This document shows positions 903 to 55,142 of a stretch of DNA of 64,000 bases, one piece after another. The notes beneath the pieces are model-generated. The model had not been told where the DNA came from, did no database searches, and saw only the letters and a program-made list of their open reading frames with translations. Positions within the stretch are counted from its first letter, which is position 1. Each line of letters opens with the position of its first letter. A program made the position numbers and the translations under genes. Source of the stretch: Intrasporangium calvum (GTDB lineage Bacteria > Actinomycetota > Actinomycetes > Actinomycetales > Dermatophilaceae); contig NZ_JAPFQL010000003.1 in assembly GCF_028446585.1 (NCBI RefSeq), forward strand, positions 62,001 through 126,000. The letters are read 5' to 3'.

Positions 903-918
903 CGTATGCCGCTGGGCT
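903..918 (+). repeat. Dispersed repeat copy 1 (CGTATGCCGCTGGGCT)
   Basis: An exact copy of the 16-base consensus, lying in the 59-base gap between hisI and the ABC exporter gene. It is followed by CGCTCGCGCG, an extension shared with the copy at 39286. Confidence 0.85.
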
Positions 919-5905: not shown

Positions 5906-6691
5906 TCAGCGCACGACGAGGCCGGCCGCCCGCATGGCGGCCTTGACCTCCGCAACGGTGAGCTCACCGAAGTGGAAGACGCTCGCGGCGAGGACGGCAT
6001 CCGCGCCGGCCTCGACGGCCGGGGCGAAGTGCTCGGGCCGTCCGGCCCCACCGCTCGCGATCACCGGGACCGTGACGGCTGCCCGCACCCGCCGGACCAG
6101 CTCGAGGTCGAAGCCCTCCTTGGTCCCGTCGAGGTCCATCGAGTTGAGCAGGATCTCGCCGGCTCCCAGCTCGGCGGCCCGCGCGCACCACTCGATGGCG
6201 TCGAGGTCGACCGGCGTGCGGCCGCCGTGGGTCGTCATGACGAAGTCGTCGGTGCGGCGCCCCTCCCGGTCCACCCGTCGGCGCACGTCCGCAGACAGGA
6301 CGAGGACCTGCGCGCCGAAGCGATCCGCGATCTCGGCGATGAGCTCCGGGCGCGCGATGGCGGCGGTGTTGACGCCCACCTTGTCGGCTCCCGCGCGCAG
6401 CAGCCGGTCGACGTCGTCGACACTGCGCACGCCGCCGCCCACCGTCAGGGGGATGAACACCTGCTCCGCCGTGCGCCGGACGACGTCGTAGGTCGTCTCG
6501 CGGTTGCCGGAGCTCGCCGTGACGTCGAGGAAGGTCAGCTCGTCGATGCCCTGGGCGTCGTAGAGCTGGGCCAGCTCGACCGGGTCACCGGCGTCGCGCA
6601 GGTTGGCGAAGTTCACCCCCTTCACCACCCGACCGGCGTCGACGTCGAGGCAGGCGATGACGCGTGTGGCGACGGAGGTTCGGGCAAGCAC
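5906..6691 (-). CDS. hisF: Imidazole glycerol phosphate synthase cyclase subunit
   Basis: 261 residues from a GTG at 6691. HisF is the (beta-alpha)8 barrel that joins ammonia from HisH to PRFAR, giving IGP and AICAR. The N-terminal [15 protein letters not shown] holds the catalytic Asp and the Lys. The two half-barrel phosphate sites are visible as [16 protein letters not shown] and [12 protein letters not shown], and the second catalytic Asp region is [12 protein letters not shown]. HisH, HisA and the rest of the histidine operon are not in the window. HisI lies about 5 kb away, separated by the exporter and GNAT genes. Confidence 0.95.
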
Positions 6692-6725: not shown

Positions 6726-7337
6726 ATGTGGGACCAGATCACGGGACCGGCCGACCCCCTCCACGTCGAGGCCGTCGTCGAGCTGGCCCTTGACGTCCTG
6801 CCGCGCTGTGGCGACACGGCCGTCGTCGCGATCGACGGCCGCAGCGGCGCCGGGAAGACGACGCTCGCCCACGGCGTGGCCGCGGCCCTCTCCGCCTACG
6901 GCACCGTCGAGGTGGTGCACATGGACCAGCTCTATCCCGGCTGGGACGGCTTGGCCGAGTCGTCTGAGCTCCTGGCCACGCGCGTCCTCGAGCCGATCTC
7001 CCGAGCGAGCTCAGCGGCATACGACCGCTGGGACTGGCAGGAGGGTGGCTGGGACGGCACCGTGCGCGTCGAGGCGGCCGACTTCCTCGTCGTCGAGGGG
7101 TGCGGTGCCAGCGTCGGGCCCGCCAGGCCGTTCGCCGCCGTCACGGTGTTCATGGAGGCTGACCGGGACGTCCGCCGCGACCGGGGACTCGCGCGGGACG
7201 GAGAGACCTACCGGCCACACTGGCAGCGCTGGGCCGCCCAGGAGGAGGCCGTGTTCGCCTCGGACGACACGAAGTCGCGGTCGGACCTCGTCATCGACAC
7301 CAGCACCGGGCGCACCGGACGGAACCCCGCGACATGA
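6726..7337 (+). CDS. P-loop nucleoside/uridine kinase-like ATPase
   Basis: 203 residues, starting with MWDQITGPADP. Walker A is VVAIDGRSGAGKTTLA at about residues 35-50, as in uridine kinase and related small-molecule kinases. VHMDQLYPGWDGL looks like the DDFY-like acceptor region. A Walker-B-like strand FLVVEGCGASVGP follows near residue 120. These features suggest phosphorylation of a small substrate, but no specific substrate can be assigned. The gene carries an inverted copy of the dispersed repeat at 7008-7023, which encodes RASSAAYDR. It overlaps the MFS gene by four bases, so the two are probably coupled. Confidence 0.7.
   Translation: MWDQITGPADPLHVEAVVELALDVLPRCGDTAVVAIDGRSGAGKTTLAHGVAAALSAYGTVEVVHMDQLYPGWDGLAESSELLATRVLEPISRASSAAYDRWDWQEGGWDGTVRVEAADFLVVEGCGASVGPARPFAAVTVFMEADRDVRRDRGLARDGETYRPHWQRWAAQEEAVFASDDTKSRSDLVIDTSTGRTGRNPAT
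7008..7023 (-). repeat. Dispersed repeat copy 2, inside the kinase gene
   Basis: On the minus strand this reads CGTATGCCGCTGAGCT, continuing CGCTCGGG. It is antisense to the P-loop kinase reading frame, where it encodes SSAAYD. Confidence 0.85.
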
Positions 7338-10745: not shown

Positions 10746-10761
10746 CGTATGCCGCTGGGCT
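10746..10761 (+). repeat. Dispersed repeat copy 3, ribH-hisE gap
   Basis: An exact CGTATGCCGCTGGGCT in the 45-base gap between ribH and hisE, that is, immediately upstream of hisE. Confidence 0.85.
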
Positions 10762-13130: not shown

Positions 13131-14195
13131 CTACTCCTTCCCCGCCACTGACGCGGGCACTGCCTGAACTCGGATGTCCCCGCCCACACGGGTGACGTCG
13201 GTGACCTCCAGCCGTCGGATGGCGTCCATGGAGGTGATGCCGAGGTCCCCCACGGCTGCTGGGCCGGCGCCGAGCAGCGCTGGGGCGAGGTAGGCGACCA
13301 CCTCGTCGACCAGGCCGGCCGAGAGGAACGCCGCCGCAAGCGTGGGACCGCCCTCGAGCCAGACGTCTCGGACGCCTCGCTCCCAGAGGGTGTCCAGCAC
13401 GACCTGGGGATCCCGGGTGCGCAGGTGGACGACGCCGCCTGGCCCCGTGTGGACCCGCGCCGTCGCGGGGACGTCGCGCAGGCCGACCACGACGCGCAGC
13501 GGGGCGGTCTCGGGGAGCCGGCCCAGCGGCATACGGTCTGGCTCGCGTCGGACGGTGAGCCGGGGGTCGTCCGTCAGGACGGTGCCCGTGCCCGCGACGA
13601 TGGCGTCGCGCGTGGCCCGCAGGTCGTGCACGTCTCGGCGCGCCTCCTCCCCGGTGATCCACTGGCTCGACCCGTCCGCCGCGGCGCTGCGACCGTCGAG
13701 AGTGGCCGCGAACTTCCACGTCACGAGCGGCCGTCCCAGGGCGACGGTGCGGGCCCACCTCGCGTTGATCGCCGCGGCCTCGCCAGCCAGGAGCCCGGCC
13801 TCGACCTCCACCCCCGAGGCACGCAGCACGTCGGCTCCCCCGGCAGCGACGCCGTTCGGATCGGTCTGCGCAAAGACGACACGGCTGACTCCCGCGGCGA
13901 CGAGCGCGTCGGCGCAGGGGCCGGTCCGCCCGGTGTGCGCGCACGGCTCGAGCGACACGTAGGCGGTCCCGCCCCGAGCGAGGTTGCCGGCCAGCGCCAG
14001 CGCCGCCGCCTCCGCGTGCGGGGTCCCGGCGCCCTCGTGCCAGCCCTCCCCGACCACGGTGCCCGCCGCATCGACGATGACACACCCGACCCGAGGGTTG
14101 GGGTCCGGCCAGGGCGATCGCTCGGCGAGGGCGATGGCACGCTGCATGAACGCCGCGTCCGCGCCCGCGCTGCCCTCCGGCTGCCGCGCGACCAT
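13131..14195 (-). CDS. ribD: Bifunctional riboflavin deaminase/reductase
   Basis: 354 residues from ATG at 14195. The N-terminal deaminase domain (about 1-150) shows the zinc site: HAEAAALALAG followed by EPCAHTGRTGPCADAL (His and two Cys). The C-terminal reductase domain (about 155-354) is DHFR-like, with RPLVTWKFAATLDGR and GVRDVWLEGGPTLAAAFL. It carries out the two steps after GTP opening. A sense-strand copy of the dispersed repeat at 13521-13535 encodes RMPLG in the reductase domain. It starts two bases after the transporter gene. Confidence 0.95.
   Translation of the reverse strand: MVARQPEGSAGADAAFMQRAIALAERSPWPDPNPRVGCVIVDAAGTVVGEGWHEGAGTPHAEAAALALAGNLARGGTAYVSLEPCAHTGRTGPCADALVAAGVSRVVFAQTDPNGVAAGGADVLRASGVEVEAGLLAGEAAAINARWARTVALGRPLVTWKFAATLDGRSAAADGSSQWITGEEARRDVHDLRATRDAIVAGTGTVLTDDPRLTVRREPDRMPLGRLPETAPLRVVVGLRDVPATARVHTGPGGVVHLRTRDPQVVLDTLWERGVRDVWLEGGPTLAAAFLSAGLVDEVVAYLAPALLGAGPAAVGDLGITSMDAIRRLEVTDVTRVGGDIRVQAVPASVAGKE
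13521..13535 (-). repeat. Dispersed repeat copy 4, inside ribD
   Basis: On the minus strand this reads CGTATGCCGCTGGGC, sense to ribD, encoding RMPLG. Confidence 0.85.
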
Positions 14196-16774: not shown

Positions 16775-18280
16775 TCAGCGCTTGCGCAGCAGTGCGAGGA
16801 ACATCGCGTCGGTGCCGTGGACGTGCGGCCAGAGCTGGACGTAGGGACCGTCGCCGAGGTCCGGCAGGGGCGCTCCCGCAGCGTCGCGGAAGAGCGGTCG
16901 CGCATCTTCCAGCTCGACGTCGTCGCGCTTCTTGATCACGTCCTGGACGACGAACTTCGTCTCGTTGAGATGCGGACTGCACGTCGCGTAGCCGATCACG
17001 CCGCCCGACCGGGTCGCCTCGATCCCCGATGCGAGCAGCTCGCGCTGGAGGGTCGCCAGGGTGGCCACGTCGCCGGGGCTGCGTCGCCACCGCGCCTCCG
17101 GCCGGCGGCGCAGCGCCCCGAGGCCGGTGCAGGGGGCATCGATGAGAACACGGGTGTATGCCGCTGGGCTCAGTTCCCCGATCTCCCGCCCGTCTCCGTG
17201 GCGGACCTCGATCGTCGTGCCGGCCTCGCGGGCCGCCGCGGACGCGGCCGCGAGAGTCTGTTGGACGAGTTGTGCCCGGTGCTCGTTCACCTCATTGGCC
17301 ACGAACGGGATCCTGCGCTGCACGGCTATCGAGGCGAGGAGTCCCGCCTTCCCACCGGGCCCGGCGCAGAGATCGAGCCAGCGTTCGCCCGTCAGGGCTG
17401 ACTCGCCCATCTCGGCCGTGGCGATGGCCAGCGCGAGCAGCTGGGAGCCCTCGTCCTGCACCGCGGCCCGGCCCTCGCGCACCGCTGGGATCGCTCCGGG
17501 GTCCCCCTCGGGCAGGACGGCGCCCACCGGACTCGTGGTCGACGCCTCGGCGCCGGCCTCGACGAGCTCCGCGACGGAGGCCAGACCGGGTCGGGCGGCC
17601 AGCGCCACCTTGGCGGCGGCGTTGTCCGAGGCCAGCAGGGCAGCCAGCTCCGCCTCCGCGGTGTCGACCACCGCGCGACCGTGTCCGATGAGGGCGGCCC
17701 GAAGTGCCTTGACCACCCAGAGCGGGTGCGACGTCCGGATGGCGAGGGCCTCGGTGGGATCGGCGACGTCGGCCGTGACGACCTCCAACCACTCGTCCAG
17801 GGATCGTTCGCTGATCCGGCGCATCACGGCGTTGACGAAGCCGGCGGCTCCTGCCCCGTTGACCTGCCGCGCCAGCGCCACGGTCTCGTCCACGGCGGCG
17901 TGCGTCGGGACACGCATGCTGAGGACCTGGTGGGCCCCGAGCCGGATCGTGTCGAGGACCCGCGGGTCGATCCGGTCGACCGGCCGGTCGGCCGCCCGGG
18001 CGGCGAGCGTGTCGTAGAGGCCGGAGAGGCGGGTCGCGCCATAGACGAGCTCGGTCGCGAAACCGGCGTCGCGGCCGTGGATCCGCTTCTCCCGCAGCAG
18101 CTTGGGCAGGGCGAGGTTGGCGTAGGCGCCTTGGGCGACCTCGCGCATCACCGTGTAGGCGGTCAGGCGGGCCGGGTCGGTGCGCCGGGCTCGCTCAGAG
18201 GGTCGCTGGGCCGACCGGTGCTGGGCCGACCGGTCCCGGGCGGGCGGCCGCTGCCGTCCGCGACGTCGCTCGTCACTCAT
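16775..18280 (-). CDS. rsmB: 16S rRNA (cytosine-5-)-methyltransferase, RsmB/Fmu type
   Basis: 501 residues. A basic low-complexity N-terminus with a duplicated RSAQ unit is followed by a NusB-like RNA-binding domain (about residues 40-190) and a SAM methyltransferase domain. The SAM motif is [17 protein letters not shown], and the two cysteines of the m5C mechanism are in [18 protein letters not shown] and [11 protein letters not shown]. It methylates a cytosine of 16S rRNA. The dispersed repeat at 17155-17170 encodes SPAAYT just before the DAPC motif. The start overlaps fmt by eight bases, as in the usual fmt-rsmB pair. Confidence 0.93.
17155..17170 (+). repeat. Dispersed repeat copy 5, inside rsmB
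   Basis: TGTATGCCGCTGGGCT, one mismatch from consensus. It is antisense to rsmB, where it encodes SPAAYT directly before the RVLIDAPC catalytic segment. Confidence 0.8.
18205..18234. repeat. Tandem 15-bp duplication in rsmB N-terminus
   Basis: GCTGGGCCGACCGGT occurs twice in a row (18205-18219 and 18220-18234), keeping the frame and encoding a doubled RSAQ unit in the disordered basic N-terminus of RsmB. Confidence 0.8.
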
Positions 18281-24570: not shown

Positions 24571-25863
24571 TCAGAGGAGGGGTTCGGCGGCGTCCAGCAC
24601 GGCGTCGGCGACCACGTCCTTGGACGCCGGGCCGACTGTGCGGACCTCGTCGCTGCCCCGACTGAGGATGTGGACGGTGTTGTCGTCGCGGCCGAACGTC
24701 TTGTCGAAGCCGACCTCGTTGGTGACCTGGAGGTCGCTGCCCTTGCGGGCGAACTTCGCACGGGCATGGTCCAGAACGGAGCCCGTCGCGTCGCCGGTCT
24801 CCGCAGCGAAGCTGACGATGACCGGGCGCGACGCGCCTCGACTCGCCCGGTCGGCCACGAGGCCCTTGACGATGTCGGGGTTCTCGACGAGCTCGAGGCG
24901 CAGGCCGGAGCCGTCCTCGCCCTTCTTGATCTTGCTCGCCTGCATCGTGGCGGGCCGGAAGTCCGCCGGCGCCGCCGCCATGACGACGAGATCCGCGTCG
25001 CTCGCGGCCTTGGTCATCGCCTCCTGCAGCTCCAGCGTCGTGCCGACCGGCACGACCCGGACGCCGTCGGGGGCGGGCAGGGCGACGTTGGCCGCCACGA
25101 GCGTGACGTCGGCGCCACGCGCGGCAGCGGCCCGCGCGATGGCGACGCCCTGCTTGCCCGACGAGCGGTTGCCGAGGAAGCGCACCGGGTCCAGGGGCTC
25201 ACGGGTGCCGCCCGCCGAGACGACGACCTTCCGCCCCGACCACGGCCCGTATGCCGCTGAGCCGGCCCGGGCGCTCACGTGACCCGGGGCGCCCTCCCCC
25301 ACCGGGGCGTCCTCGAGGGCGGGAGGAGCGTCCGGCGCGGCCTCGAGGAGAGCGAGCACAGCGGCATACAGCTCCTCCGGCTCCGGGAGTCGTCCCGCGC
25401 CGGTGTCCTTGCCGGTGAGCCGGCCCTCGGCGGGATCGATGACGTGCACGCCGCGTCCGCGCAGTGTGGCGACGTTGGCCTGGGTGGCGGCGTGGTGCCA
25501 CATCTCCGTGTGCATCGCCGGGGCGAGCACCACGGGGCAGCGCGCCGTCAGCAGGGTGTTGGTGAGCAGGTCGTCCGCGAGTCCGTGGGCAGCCTTGGCG
25601 AGCACGTCGGCGGTCGCCGGCGCGACGACGACGACGTCGGCCTGCTGGCCGATCCGCACGTGCGGCACCTCGTGGACGTCCGTCCACACCTCAGTGCTGA
25701 CCGGCTTGCCCGAGAGGGCGGCCCACGTGGGCGCCCCGACGAAGTTGAGGGCCGCCGCGGTGGGAACCACCGTGACGTCGTGCCCGCTCTCCGTGAAGAG
25801 GCGCAGGAGCGAGCAGGCCTTGTAGGCGGCGATGCCGCCGCTCACGCCGAGGACGACGCGCAT
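24571..25863 (-). CDS. coaBC: Phosphopantothenoylcysteine decarboxylase / ligase
   Basis: 430 residues, fusing two coenzyme A steps. The CoaC flavoprotein part (about 1-180) shows [39 protein letters not shown] (PASANT-like) and APAMHTEMW. The CoaB ligase part (about 215-430) shows [20 protein letters not shown] and [13 protein letters not shown], with KIKKGE later. The linker between the two parts and its edge contain two copies of the dispersed repeat (25248-25263 and 25355-25370), encoding GSAAYGP and LYAAV. It lies between rpoZ and metK. Confidence 0.95.
25248..25263 (+). repeat. Dispersed repeat copy 6, inside coaBC
   Basis: CGTATGCCGCTGAGCC, antisense to coaBC and located in the CoaC-CoaB linker, where it encodes GSAAYG. 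Confidence 0.8.
25355..25370 (-). repeat. Dispersed repeat copy 7 (diverged), inside coaBC
   Basis: On the minus strand this reads TGTATGCCGCTGTGCT, continuing CGCTCTCC. It is diverged but keeps the TATGCCGCTG core and the CGCTC extension. It faces copy 6 across about 91 bases. Confidence 0.6.
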
Positions 25864-37691: not shown

Positions 37692-37707
37692 CGTATGCCG
37701 CTGGGCC
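37692..37707 (+). repeat. Dispersed repeat copy 8, upstream of pyrR
   Basis: CGTATGCCGCTGGGCC in the 172-base gap between pyrR and the flavodoxin-like gene. Confidence 0.85.
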
Positions 37708-39285: not shown

Positions 39286-39301
39286 CGTATGCCGCTGGGC
39301 T
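39286..39301 (+). repeat. Dispersed repeat copy 9, upstream of efp
   Basis: CGTATGCCGCTGGGCT followed by CGCTCGCGCG, the same extended form as copy 1. It lies 18 bases upstream of the efp start codon. Confidence 0.85.
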
Positions 39302-42234: not shown

Positions 42235-43335
42235 TCAGCGGACGGAGACGAGCTCGTACGCTGCTCGGAGCAGTTCCTCCGACGGGCCGGCGAGCCGGGC
42301 CGGCTCCGCCAGGCCGTCGAGGACGACGAAGCGCAGGGTCGAGCCGCGGGCCTTCTTGTCGCGGCTCATCGCGGTGAGCAGCGCCTCGAACCGGTCCGGG
42401 CGGTAGGTCGTGGGCAGGCCGACGGACTCGAGGACGGCTCGATGCCAAGCCACCAGGTCGTCGCCCTCGGGACCCGTGAGGTGGCCGGTCAACCGGGCCA
42501 GCTCGGCGACGTAGACCATTCCGACGCTGATCGCCTCCCCGTGGCGCCAGGAGAACTGCTCGACCTGCTCGATCGCGTGCCCGAACGTGTGGCCGTAGTT
42601 GAGGATCTCGCGGACGGCGTTGTCCTTCAGGTCGACCGCCACGACGTCGGCCTTCACCCGGATGGCCCGCTCGATCAGCTCACGCAGTCGCGGGTTGTCC
42701 GCGCGCCGAGCCGCCGTGGGGTCCTGTGCCACGAGGTCGAGGATCACCGGGTCGGCGATGAAACCGCACTTGATCACCTCGGCGAGCCCACCGACGAAGT
42801 CAGCCTCCGGCAGACTGCGCAGCACGTCGATGTCACAGAGCACACCCACGGGCGGGTGGAAGGCACCGACGAGGTTCTTGCCCTCCTCGGTGTTGATCCC
42901 CGTCTTGCCGCCGACCGCAGCGTCGACCATGCCGAGCAAGGTGGTCGGGACCTGGACGACCTGCACGCCCCGGAGCCAGGTCGCGGCGACGAAGCCGGCG
43001 AGGTCGGTGACCGTCCCCCCGCCGACGCCGACGATGGCGTCGCTGCGGGTGAACCCCGCTCGTCCGAGGCGGCCCCAGAGTGAGGCGGCGACGGTGGACG
43101 TCTTGGCCGACTCCGCGTCGGGCACCTCGGCCGGCTCAGCGGCATACCCCTTGTCGGTGAGCAGCCCGACGACGCGATCGGCGAGGCCCGAGAGCGTCGG
43201 GGGGTGCACGACGAGGACGCGCTCGACACCCTCGCGCAAGAGGTCGGCGACCTGCTCCAGCACACCTCCCCCGATGACGACGTCGTAGTCGGATCCCACC
43301 GGGATCACCGTTGGCGCGGTGGACGCCCCGGTCAT
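42235..43335 (-). CDS. aroB: 3-dehydroquinate synthase
   Basis: 366 residues from ATG at 43335, overlapping the aroK stop as ATGA. It cyclises DAHP using NAD and zinc. Motifs: the nucleotide-binding GVGGGTVTDLAGFVAATWLRG, the metal site region AEVIKCGFIAD, and the zinc histidines in NYGHTFGHAIEQ. The C-terminal SRDKKARGSTLRFVVLDGLA is standard. A sense copy of the dispersed repeat at 43133-43147 encodes YAAEP near residue 65. Confidence 0.95.
   Translation of the reverse strand: MTGASTAPTVIPVGSDYDVVIGGGVLEQVADLLREGVERVLVVHPPTLSGLADRVVGLLTDKGYAAEPAEVPDAESAKTSTVAASLWGRLGRAGFTRSDAIVGVGGGTVTDLAGFVAATWLRGVQVVQVPTTLLGMVDAAVGGKTGINTEEGKNLVGAFHPPVGVLCDIDVLRSLPEADFVGGLAEVIKCGFIADPVILDLVAQDPTAARRADNPRLRELIERAIRVKADVVAVDLKDNAVREILNYGHTFGHAIEQVEQFSWRHGEAISVGMVYVAELARLTGHLTGPEGDDLVAWHRAVLESVGLPTTYRPDRFEALLTAMSRDKKARGSTLRFVVLDGLAEPARLAGPSEELLRAAYELVSVR
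43133..43147 (-). repeat. Dispersed repeat copy 10, inside aroB
   Basis: On the minus strand this reads GTATGCCGCTGAGCC, sense to aroB, encoding GYAAEP. Confidence 0.75.
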
Positions 43336-49093: not shown

Positions 49094-51766
<2,673 letters not shown>

Positions 51767-51990: not shown

Positions 51991-52030
51991 AGCCCAGCGG
52001 CATACGACATCTGCCGTATGCCGCTGGGCT
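51991..52030. terminator. Perfect hairpin made of two inverted dispersed-repeat copies (11 and 12)
   Basis: AGCCCAGCGGCATACG (51991-52006) and CGTATGCCGCTGGGCT (52015-52030) are exact inverted copies separated by eight bases (ACATCTGC), giving a 16-bp perfect stem. The left copy continues outward with the CGCTC extension on its own strand. It lies 37 bases after the stop of the peptide-importer operon (minus strand) and about 225 bases before alaS, so it probably works as a terminator or 3' stabiliser. The 300-base gap 51767-52066 holds this hairpin and otherwise no gene. Confidence 0.7.
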
Positions 52031-52066: not shown

Positions 52067-53122
52067 TCACCCGCGTCGGGTGGGCACCTCGCCGGTGGCC
52101 GCGCCGCGGACCTCCGGGAAGTGGCACGCGTGCAGGTGGGCCCCCGCGTCGGGCGTCGAGCCCGCGGGCCTCGGGGCGGCCTCGACGAGCGGAGGCTCCT
52201 GCCGGTAGCAGATCTCCCGCACCTTCCAGCAGCGCGTCCGGAACCGACAGCCGCTCGGCGGGTCGATCGGGCTGGGCACGTCCCCGACCAGGCGAATCCG
52301 CTCCCTCGGTGCGGCGCCGCGTGCGACGTTGATGTCGGGAGCCGCCGAGAGCAGGGCCTGGGTGTAGGGGTGACGGGGGGACGTGTAGATCTGCTGCCGG
52401 TCGCCGTACTCGACGATCTTGCCCAGATACATCACCGCGACGTCGTCACAGAAGTGCCGGACCACGCCCAGGTCGTGCGCGACGAGGACGAAGGCGAGAC
52501 CGAGCTCCGTGCGGAGCCCGGCGAGCAGGTTCATGACCTGCGCCTGGATGGACACGTCCAGGGCCGACACGGGCTCGTCGGCGATGATGAGCCGCGGCTC
52601 GACGGCCAGCGCGCGAGCGATCCCGATCCGCTGACGCTGCCCACCCGAGAACTCGGAAGGGTAACGGTTGGCATGCTCCGGCCCGAGGCCGACGAGCTCG
52701 AGCAGCTCGGCGACGCGCGCCTTCTCCCGACCGGCGTGCAGGCCGTGGACGCGCAACGGGGTCGTCAGGATCGAGCCGACCGTGTGGCGGGGGTTGAGCG
52801 AGCTGTACGGATCCTGGAAGACCATCTGGACATCCCTGCGGAACGCCCTCAGCTGCGACTCCGCCGCGTGGGTGATGTCGCGACCATCGAACTCGATCCG
52901 CCCGCCGGTCGGCTCGTCGAGCCGCGTGAGGAGCCGCGCGGCGGTCGACTTGCCACAGCCCGACTCGCCGACGATCCCGAGGGTCCGACCGGCCTGCACG
53001 GTCAGGTCGATCCCGTCGACGGCCTTGACGGTCGACCTGACCATCCGCAGCCCCTCAACGTGCCGGACCGGGAAGTGCCGCTCGAGACGGGTCGCCCTGA
53101 GCAGCGCGGATCCGGCCGTCAT
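52067..53122 (-). CDS. Peptide/nickel-type ABC importer ATPase, DppF-like
   Basis: 351 residues from the ATG at 53122, overlapping the upstream gene as ATGA. Walker A is [17 protein letters not shown], the signature is [16 protein letters not shown], and Walker B is [19 protein letters not shown]. The C-terminal oligopeptide-family cysteines [14 protein letters not shown] and LHACHF, which bind an iron-sulfur cluster in several members, are present. It powers the importer with the DppD-like partner. Last gene of the operon. Confidence 0.92.
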
Positions 53123-54159
53123 CGCAGACCTCCTGCATCGATGGCCGTGACCGGATCCTCCAGGTGGCACCGCACGTGCCGGTGCGACTCGCCCGGAGCC
53201 GCTCGCCAGGCCGGGACCTCAGTCCGGCACGGAGCGCCCACCCGGTCGCTGAACACGCAGCGCGGATGGAACGCACACCCCGGCGGCGGGGCCAGGAGGC
53301 TGGGCGGGTTGCCGGGGATGGTGCGCAGCAGCCCGAGGTCCGCGGAGGGTGAGGGCAGCGACTGCAGGAGCGCCTCGGTGTAGGGGTGCGAGGGACGTCC
53401 GAGCACCTGCCTCGCGGGACCCTGCTCCACGGCCCGGCCGGCATACATGACGAGCAGGTCGTCGGCCGTCTCGGCGACGACCGCGAGGTCGTGCGTGATG
53501 AGGATGACCGCTGAGCCGAACTCACGACGGAGGTCTCCGAGCAGGTCCAGGATCTGCGCCTGGACCGTCACGTCGAGCGCCGTCGTCGGCTCGTCCGCGA
53601 TGAGCAGCCTCGGGTTGTTGACGAGCCCGAGCGCGATCATGGCCCGCTGGCGCATCCCGCCCGAGAACTCGTGCGGGAACTGGTTCGCCCTGCGGTGCGG
53701 GTTGGGGATCCCGACGCGGTCGAGCATCTCCACCGCGCGGCGCTGGGCCACGGCCTTGCTCACGGGGTGGTGGGCCCGATACGCCTCGGCGATCTGCCGG
53801 CCCACCTTGTGGAACGGGTGCAGGGCGCTGAGGGGGTCCTGGAAGACCATCGCGGCCGTCGTGCTGCGCAGTGCCTGCAGCATCCACTCCGGCGCGCCGA
53901 CGACCTCTTCCCCCTCGAGGCGGATGCTGCCGCTGATCCTCGTCCGCCGCGGGTCATGCAGCCCGAGGACCGCCATGCTGGCCACGGTCTTGCCCGAACC
54001 GGACTCACCGACGATCGCGAGCGTGCGGCCGAGACGCGCCTGGAAGCTGAGCCCCGAGACCGCCTGCAGGAGACCTTCGTCCGTGGGGAACGCGATGGAC
54101 AGGTCGGTGACGTCGAGCACCACGTCTGCGGGCGGGTCGACCCTGCCGTCGGGGATCAC
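53119..54159 (-). CDS. Peptide/nickel-type ABC importer ATPase, DppD-like
   Basis: 346 residues from a GTG at 54159 overlapping the permease stop as GTGA. Walker A is [20 protein letters not shown], the signature is [16 protein letters not shown], and Walker B is [18 protein letters not shown]. The C-terminal family cysteines are [17 protein letters not shown] and later VRCHL. The [13 protein letters not shown] form is typical of DppD/OppD. It is the second ATPase of the importer. Confidence 0.92.
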
Positions 54160-55142
54160 GACAGCCTCACTCGCGGGTCGACGAACGAGTAGGCGATGTC
54201 GACGACGAGGTTGAGCGTCACGACGAGGACCGCCGTCACCAGAACCGTCCCCATGATGACCGGCAGGTCGTCACGCGCCAGCGCGTCGATGGAGAGCTTG
54301 CCGATGCCGTCGATCTCGAAGATCTTCTCGGTCACGAGAGTCCCCGAGAGGAGCGCCGCCACGTCGAGGCCGAGGATCGTGACGACCGGGCCGATGGCGG
54401 CCCGCAGGGCGTGCGAGCGGACCACGGTCACCTCGTCGAGACCCTTGGACCGTGCAGTTCGCACGTAGTCGGTGGCGAGGGTCTCGATCATCGCGCTCCG
54501 CGTGTAGCGTGCGTAGCCGGCCGAGTAGACCAGGCCGAGCAGCAGGCACGGCGCGATGAGACCTGCCAGGAACCCGGGCAGTCCGTCCGAGAGCGGCATC
54601 GCCTGCGGCAGGATCCCGTGGATCCGGGTCGCGTAGAGGGCGAAGACGAGGGCGACCACGTAGTACGGGATCGCCCCGAAGACCTGCGAGCCACCGATGA
54701 GCAGGCGGTCCAGCGCACTGCCTCGAGCTCGCGCCGTGATGACACCGACCGTCAGCCCGACGGCGAGGAGGACGACGACGGTGCCGAGGGCCAGCAGCAC
54801 GGTGGCCGGGAAGCGGGAGAAGATCTCCTCCGACACGGGGCGCTTCGTGAGGAACGACATCCCCAGGCAGGGCGCACTGCAGTGGACGACGTCCCCGGCG
54901 AACTCGAAGTCACGGCCGACGAAGAGGCCACCGAAGTACTCGGTGAACTGAGCGGCGAGCGGTCGGTCGAGCCCGAGGTTCTCCCGGATCTCGGTGAGAC
55001 GCTCCGGCGAGCACCGCTGCTCTGGGCACATCGCCTGCGCGGGGTCGGCCGGGCCGGCGAAGAAGAGGAGGAACGATGCGACGAGCGTGGCCAACAGGAC
55101 GGTCAGTCCCAGGCCAACGCGTCGCAGGACGTACGTGAGCAC
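54156..55142 (-). CDS. Peptide/nickel-type ABC importer permease, DppB-like
   Basis: 328 residues with about six transmembrane segments. It begins MLTYVLRRVGLGLTVLLATLV, typical for the B permeases. LTEIRENLGLDRPLAAQFTEYFGG and a C-terminal FPATVLLALGTVVVLLAVGLTVGV follow, and the EAA-like loop RTARSKGLDEVTVVRSHALR contacts the ATPases. An unusually hydrophilic insertion of CPEQRCSPE and CSAPC cysteines lies in the first outer loop; this resembles other actinobacterial members. It forms the channel with the DppC-like gene located upstream in the operon. Confidence 0.92.
   Translation of the reverse strand: MLTYVLRRVGLGLTVLLATLVASFLLFFAGPADPAQAMCPEQRCSPERLTEIRENLGLDRPLAAQFTEYFGGLFVGRDFEFAGDVVHCSAPCLGMSFLTKRPVSEEIFSRFPATVLLALGTVVVLLAVGLTVGVITARARGSALDRLLIGGSQVFGAIPYYVVALVFALYATRIHGILPQAMPLSDGLPGFLAGLIAPCLLLGLVYSAGYARYTRSAMIETLATDYVRTARSKGLDEVTVVRSHALRAAIGPVVTILGLDVAALLSGTLVTEKIFEIDGIGKLSIDALARDDLPVIMGTVLVTAVLVVTLNLVVDIAYSFVDPRVRLS

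Follow-up and report, generated by a model that had tools for sequence, protein, structure and literature searches.

Results

The window, a 64-kb stretch of the draft genome of Intrasporangium calvum (4.12 Mb in 163 contigs), contains the end of an importer operon, a gap of 300 bp that holds a hairpin, and alaS as the next gene downstream (Table 1). Gene positions were taken from our own simple gene caller (codon log-odds), and no annotation was used. The initial annotation of this stretch had called the genes upstream of the hairpin an importer operon, and the Pfam matches of three of them bear out that label. It had also described a perfect 16-bp stem with an eight-base loop, which we found exactly so, and had placed it 37 bases after the last importer gene; the closeness held, but the figure did not, the measured distance being 36 nt.

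The hairpin consists of two facing copies of AGCGGCATACG, one in each arm. In RNA of the minus strand, which is the coding strand of both flanking genes, the region forms an 18-bp stem with a 4-nt loop, and a 66-nt piece including a small second hairpin folded at -47.3 kcal/mol (z = -6.64; 0 of 200 shuffles equal). The locus has the stable hairpin shortly past a stop codon that marks canonical terminators. On neither strand was the stem followed by a T-run. Because a U-run is absent 3′ of the stem, the hairpin was not classed as a canonical intrinsic terminator, only as likely to be terminator-like.

Within the window, AGCGGCATACG occurred 12 times with at most one mismatch (9 of these copies exact), compared with a mean of 1.05 and a maximum of 4 in shuffled sequences. 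Elsewhere in the window, a tRNA-Arg(acg) found by ARAGORN at 6439-6527 (-) overlapped a predicted gene at 5906-6691 (-), and one of these predictions is probably an error.

Table 1. Positions of genes, hairpin elements and motif copies in the window
Feature	Position	Strand	Remarks
Motif copy	903-913	-	Intergenic
Motif copy	7013-7023	+	Within gene 6726-7337 (+)
Motif copy	10746-10756	-	Intergenic
Motif copy	13525-13535	+	Within gene 13131-14195 (-)
Motif copy, 1 mismatch in 11-mer	17155-17165	-	Within gene 16775-18148 (-)
Motif copy	25248-25258	-	Within gene 24571-25863 (-)
Motif copy, 1 mismatch	25360-25370	+	Within gene 24571-25863 (-)
Motif copy	37692-37702	-	Intergenic
Motif copy	39286-39296	-	Intergenic
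Motif copy, 1 mismatch	43138-43148	+	Within gene 42235-43335 (-)
alaS, next gene downstream of hairpin	49094-51766	-	Pfam tRNA-synt_2c; gene call
Hairpin left arm	51991-52006	+	Exact 16-nt reverse complement of 52015-52030; contains motif copy 51996-52006 (+)
Hairpin loop	52007-52014	.	8 nt
Hairpin right arm	52015-52030	-	Exact reverse complement of left arm; contains motif copy 52015-52025 (-)
OppF-like oligopeptide ABC ATPase, final importer-operon gene	52067-53122	-	Pfam ABC_tran and oligo_HPY; stop 36 nt from hairpin
Second oligopeptide ABC ATPase, importer operon	53119-54159	-	Pfam ABC_tran and oligo_HPY; gene call
Importer-operon permease	54156-55142	-	Pfam BPD_transp_1; gene call

Copies in the I. 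calvum genome

The genome carried 886 exact copies of AGCGGCATACG (440 forward and 446 reverse), compared with 11 of the reversed word. Among 79 exact copies located in 433 kb, 49 were in gaps, which make up approximately 10% of the sequence surveyed, 28 were in genes (14 per orientation), and 2 were at edges. The eight-mers of I. calvum were in gaps in 64 of 117 cases, with approximately 11 expected.

The consensus of these 79 copies extended over approximately 25 bp. Relative to the 11-mer's first base, it had A at -9, C at -7 and A or G at -5, with GCYC directly 5′ of the core, G and C 3′ of the core, and T-rich positions downstream. The extended consensus was also present in copies within coding sequence (n = 41; counted from the 9-mer, A in 76% at -10, C in 80% at -8, G in 90% at -5, C in 98% at -4, and A in 98% at -1). 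A consensus of this length, kept also in genes, would suit contact with double-stranded DNA.

Origin and placement of copies in genes

An alignment of 21 alaS genes contained 13 motif copies at six sites in 10 genomes, and no gap fell within the motif at any of the six. At one site (Tyr-Ala), the motif was formed via a TAT codon in seven genomes; TAC was used in 12 of the 14 genes lacking the motif. For this gene and these 21 genomes, the gap-free alignment excludes insertion of a unit. The alaS data would be compatible with point mutation or gene conversion as the source of copies.

In the dense genera sampled, most copies were within genes, in both orientations. In the complete chromosome of G089, 228 of 304 sampled copies were in genes, mostly in one codon phase per orientation; 140 ran opposite to the gene strand and 88 along it. 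This leaning of coding copies shows that codon context also shapes them.

A genomic island of 22 kb in I. calvum (contig C13, approximately 65.8-87.8 kb) contained one nine-mer, compared with approximately 4.9 expected, yet three eight-mers. The island has lower G+C and carries integrase-like, resolvase-like and type I restriction-like genes, as judged from protein starts. The sparsest of the 20-kb samples of G089, with 2 copies, covered a polysaccharide region that contains transposase-like remnants; the 2 copies were both outside the variable part. The two regions, an island of I. calvum and a variable polysaccharide region of G089, do no more than suggest that the motif is scarce in foreign DNA.

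Inverted pairs at gene ends

When pairs were counted as tight if the 9-mers were separated by no more than 31 nt, I. calvum had 37 facing and 34 back-to-back pairs, 71 in total, and the control had none. The pair at 52.0 kb is one of many in the genome, contrary to the lack of other inverted pairs that the initial annotation had named as a refutation. We examined 30 of the 71 loci, namely, the first 15 listed of each kind: 15 were in gaps between tandem genes, 11 between convergent genes, and 1 between divergent genes; of the other three, 2 were at contig ends and 1 was within a predicted gene. In all 14 facing pairs with a measured distance, the nearest stop codon was 9-44 nt away; among the 12 back-to-back pairs for which a distance was measured, it was 3-65 nt away in 11 and 256 nt away in one. 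Thus, 25 of the 30 examined pairs were at most 65 nt past a stop codon, which makes it likely that inverted pairs between genes, the one at 52.0 kb among them, are used as terminators.

Back-to-back palindromes were also found at contig ends of the I. calvum draft (C2:4-33, C19:1-30, C96:39-68, C136:206-235, and C137:13-42). The draft assembly therefore seems to break at hairpins, and the total of back-to-back pairs is probably greater than 34.

Among the matches listed, the nearest named relatives by AlaRS were I. oryzae (85%) and Intrasporangiaceae URHB0013 (81%). The alaS gap contained a facing pair in the former (copy starts 79 nt apart) and a back-to-back pair in the latter (copy starts 41 nt apart).

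Orientation and spacing of copies

In twenty 20-kb samples of the G089 chromosome, 153 copies were on the plus strand and 151 were on the minus strand. No sample was strongly one-sided, although one had only 2 copies, both on the minus strand; a replichore bias is therefore unlikely. Neighboring copies alternated in orientation in 189 of 284 cases in G089 and in 535 of 790 cases across nine genomes.

The spacing of copies depended on their relative orientation. In seven dense genomes, same-orientation pairs less than approximately 600 bp apart were rare (0.04-0.13 per bp, compared with at least 0.30 for opposite-orientation pairs), were back up by 900-1000 bp, and were approximately as frequent as opposite-orientation pairs beyond that distance. 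Opposite-orientation pairs showed a flat distribution, except for an excess at less than 100 bp that represents the hairpins. In the nine genomes combined, 138 of the 463 pairs separated by 60-1000 bp had the same orientation; in G089 the count was 73 of 244, with a permutation mean of 121.9 and 0 of 2000 permutations as low. Label permutation pointed the same way in each of the nine genomes (0 to 262 of 2000 as low), the weakest case being G001 with three pairs. Control words had a mean same-orientation fraction of 0.53-0.55 (8, 104, and 3 words in three genomes). Overall copy spacing was near random (CV 1.12 in G089).

The initial annotation had regarded the pair at 52.0 kb as showing that the repeat is a unit with an intrinsic orientation. 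The 886 copies and their orientation-dependent spacing agree with an oriented, genome-wide unit; the evidence for orientation, however, is the spacing found in nine genomes, and the 52.0-kb pair alone does not demonstrate it. Orientation-specific exclusion of this kind needs a polar process.

Distribution and dialects in the family

Sequence logos from nine genomes showed that CGGCATAC is an invariant 8-bp core with genus-specific flanks. We called a genome rich when the density of the core was 150 per Mb or higher and at least double that of the control, and poor when it was less than 35 per Mb. Of 149 genomes of the family, 81 were rich (median 492 per Mb, range 156-1356 per Mb), 50 were poor (25 per Mb or fewer), and 18 were intermediate and were excluded from gene comparisons between rich and poor genomes. 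The highest count was 4,724, compared with 388 for the control (G008), and forward and reverse counts were almost equal in motif-rich genomes.

The dialects were CAGCGGCATACG in Intrasporangium and CGCGGCATAC, followed by C or G, in Knoellia koreensis. Three more, each read from one 22-kb locus with 4-9 word copies, were CACGGCATACC in Ornithinimicrobium tianjinense, GACGGCATACC in Serinicoccus, and CACGGCATACG in Tetrasphaera. Two 22-kb alaS loci (L030 and L065) also contained four copies each of the palindrome GGCGATCGCC, approximately 20-times the expectation; this word resembles the cyanobacterial HIP1 word.

Among 228 genomes from the order's other families, none was enriched in CGGCATAC (top count 177, control 135). 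In a sweep of 296 genomes of the class, 8 of them of the family, no outsider reached the threshold for a rich genome (top outside count 386, control 176). One outside genome (G630, family f41) had 170 copies of the core, compared with 27 for the control and approximately 5-50 in most other f41 genomes listed; its motif is possibly a weak or borrowed version. A word survey also covered 20 genomes from 19 other families, with a single stretch per genome; three of these stretches were shorter than 14 kb. In this survey, the score of the motif was 65 and 81 in two dense samples of the family and only 19 in a third, and it did not register in one piece of I. calvum; the highest-scoring word in another family reached 32. 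Other families could carry a sparser tag.

On a tree of one gene, ComEC, from 46 of the 48 genomes with com regions (G014 and G015 had no ComEC match in the gene calls), the rich state needed 10 changes, at least 9 of them on well-supported branches. Rich and poor labels were more clustered on this tree than by chance (5 of 500 shuffles as low). We favor one origin followed by approximately ten losses within the family because the core is common to all dialects; the tree alone cannot separate losses from gains. Two genomes of motif-rich genera were without the motif: G090 had 19 copies, compared with 1,062 and 3,681 in its genus mates, and G146 had 37, compared with 1,251-1,660. These two genomes represent natural loss experiments.

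Competence, pilus, and recombination genes

In Neisseria, the sequence-specific receptor is the pilin-type protein ComP. In I. calvum, ComEA (HHH_3, SLBB) and ComEC (Competence, Lactamase_B) were intact in adjacent reading frames, and a Flp pilin match was present. ComEA adjoined ComEC in most of 48 genomes, whether rich or poor in the motif; five of the 48 (G003, G015, G019, G026, and G071) had no ComEA match, which may reflect misses of the gene caller.

Among the 149 family genomes, ComEC was present in 145, irrespective of the motif, T2SSE was present in 148, and PilM was present in only 5. None of these three candidate readers tracked the motif, and Flp did so only loosely: it was matched in 71 genomes, more often in motif-rich (50 of 81) than in poor (14 of 50) ones (P = 0.0003), and 31 of the 81 rich genomes were without a match. 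RecC was found in 60 of the 149 and was negatively associated with the motif (24 of 81 rich, 28 of 50 poor; P = 0.003). Among nine independent pairs on the ComEC tree, Flp differed in approximately two and RecC in three to four, numbers too small for a test.

Discussion

On balance, we lean toward the reading that the repeat is a DNA self-recognition tag of natural transformation that resembles an uptake sequence and acts with polarity. The uptake role, the polarity of processing, and termination are what we infer from the patterns described. A receptor on the surface side of the competence machinery would bind the asymmetric tag on double-stranded DNA. If tagged fragments were preferred for uptake and recombination, tags that had arisen in the DNA of kin would accumulate throughout the genome. 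A receptor reading the tag in one orientation would cause DNA to be processed with polarity, each tag serving approximately one kilobase of DNA to one side; another tag nearby in the same orientation would be redundant, and one in the opposite orientation would not. Between genes, close opposite tags would form hairpins that could be co-opted as terminators, and the hairpin at 52.0 kb would be one such case. The repeat has several features of uptake sequences, namely, an over-represented asymmetric word with balanced strands, a conserved core whose flanks form dialects, single copies that lie in genes as well as gaps and, in alaS, arose without insertion, and inverted pairs at gene ends.

The main rival is a polar recombination signal of the Chi type, which we consider unlikely. 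A helicase-nuclease (AdnAB or a relative) would read the motif on one strand when coming from a break and would then switch to recombination; close copies in the same orientation would be redundant, and opposite ones would serve enzymes arriving from the other side. Polarity and same-orientation redundancy thus follow naturally. The motif resembles Chi in having a polar, asymmetric, over-represented, octamer-like core, and its short 8-10 bp core is mostly within genes in the dense genera sampled. However, RecC, a part of the E. coli Chi reader, had no match in I. calvum, in G001, or in 57 of the 81 motif-rich genomes, which makes RecBCD an unlikely reader, and RecC was more often present in poor genomes. 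The spacing of Chi in E. coli is also the opposite of that found here: 71 sites in 300 kb gave 22 same-orientation and 8 opposite-orientation pairs within 1 kb (37 same and 33 alternating neighbors). In addition, the consensus of approximately 25 bp in I. calvum, maintained even within genes, is long for a Chi site, and the strand bias with replication that Chi shows in E. coli was not seen in the twenty G089 samples.

We regard as quite improbable a mark for chromosome organization or repair, that is, an oriented binding site or a site of one-strand modification placed approximately once per kilobase on each strand, whether read by a nucleoid protein, used in strand discrimination, or serving as an epigenetic mark. 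Such a mark would agree with the spaced array that each strand has of its own and with an asymmetric motif that is almost balanced between strands. The dialect flanks and the patchy presence implied by the 10 changes on the ComEC tree, however, fit a dispensable system better, and the overall spacing was uneven and near random.

Selection for hairpins at 3′-ends as the whole explanation of the repeat is very hard to sustain. It would account for the position of 25 pairs, out of 26 for which a distance was measured, at 3-65 nt past the stop codon and for the enrichment of I. calvum copies in gaps. Most copies are single, however, with only 71 tight pairs among approximately 900 copies, and dense genera have mostly coding copies; the presence of copies in genes in both orientations refutes terminators as the sole explanation.

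Spread of a mobile repeat (REP/REPIN or MITE) by a transposase is scarcely credible despite the high copy number and the inverted pairs, given that the motif replaces homologous codons without a gap at all six alaS sites, occurs in both orientations within genes, and differs between dialects through substitutions at flanking positions. The REPIN comparison drawn in the initial annotation therefore finds no support, REP/REPIN elements being inserted as units and rare in genes.

The uptake-like tag may also be viewed at the level of the family. We give an even chance to the proposal that the family uses in gene exchange an undescribed, dialect-forming, polar self-recognition tag, placed on each strand approximately every kilobase, and that this is the first uptake-sequence system of Gram-positive bacteria in the open-licence literature. 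Among the papers listed by searches of that literature, no prior report of the motif or of uptake sequences in Actinomycetota was found, and in the text available uptake sequences were described for two Gram-negative families. If the proposal is correct, this would be a third independent system, and its dialects and approximately ten changes of state within one family would provide natural replicates for the old question of why uptake sequences arise (selfish drive or mate recognition). Exclusion that can be read from sequence alone would open the polarity of the process to testing, in Haemophilus and Neisseria as well, and the tag would offer a practical handle on the genetics of Knoellia, Tetrasphaera, and Intrasporangium.

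Comparison with known systems

The actinobacterium Micrococcus luteus is transformed via ComEA/ComEC and Flp pili according to the accessible parts of PMC4322843 and PMC6370729. I. calvum resembles it in having ComEA, ComEC, and a Flp pilin match. The two differ in that no uptake sequence is described for M. luteus in those parts, and Flp was unmatched in 31 of the 81 motif-rich genomes.

In the text available from each source, spacing is given as approximately 1,000 bp for the USS (PMC7811141) and approximately 1,130-1,500 nt for the DUS (PMC2397512), and the upper part of the density range of the family (156-1356 per Mb) matches these densities. Inverted pairs just past stop codons are described in the same excerpts for neisserial and Haemophilus uptake sequences (PMC7811141, PMC2397512). 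As far as the accessible sections of PMC3630211 and PMC2397512 extend, the motif resembles the DUS in being a short asymmetric word occurring approximately once per kb, with an invariant core and lineage-specific flanks, with single copies in genes and gaps, and with inverted pairs as likely terminators. It differs from the DUS in the word itself, in its Gram-positive host, in which the type IVa pilus protein PilM is absent from 144 of 149 genomes, and in orientation-specific exclusion, which those sections do not describe for the DUS.

The word also differs from the USS, and so does the role of orientation: uptake by H. influenzae is reported in the accessible part of PMC1939737 to be independent of USS orientation, whereas same-orientation copies exclude each other here. 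Orientation-specific exclusion is therefore, as far as that part of the source goes, no established property of uptake sequences; it is either a difference from the USS or a property so far unmeasured in the USS. The likeness to the USS comprises a core with extended flanks (approximately 25 bp in I. calvum), a spacing of approximately 1 kb in dense genera, and both kinds of tight pairs at gene ends, with 69 -/+ and 40 +/- pairs in H. influenzae 86-028NP (from the available text of PMC7811141) compared with 34 and 37 here.
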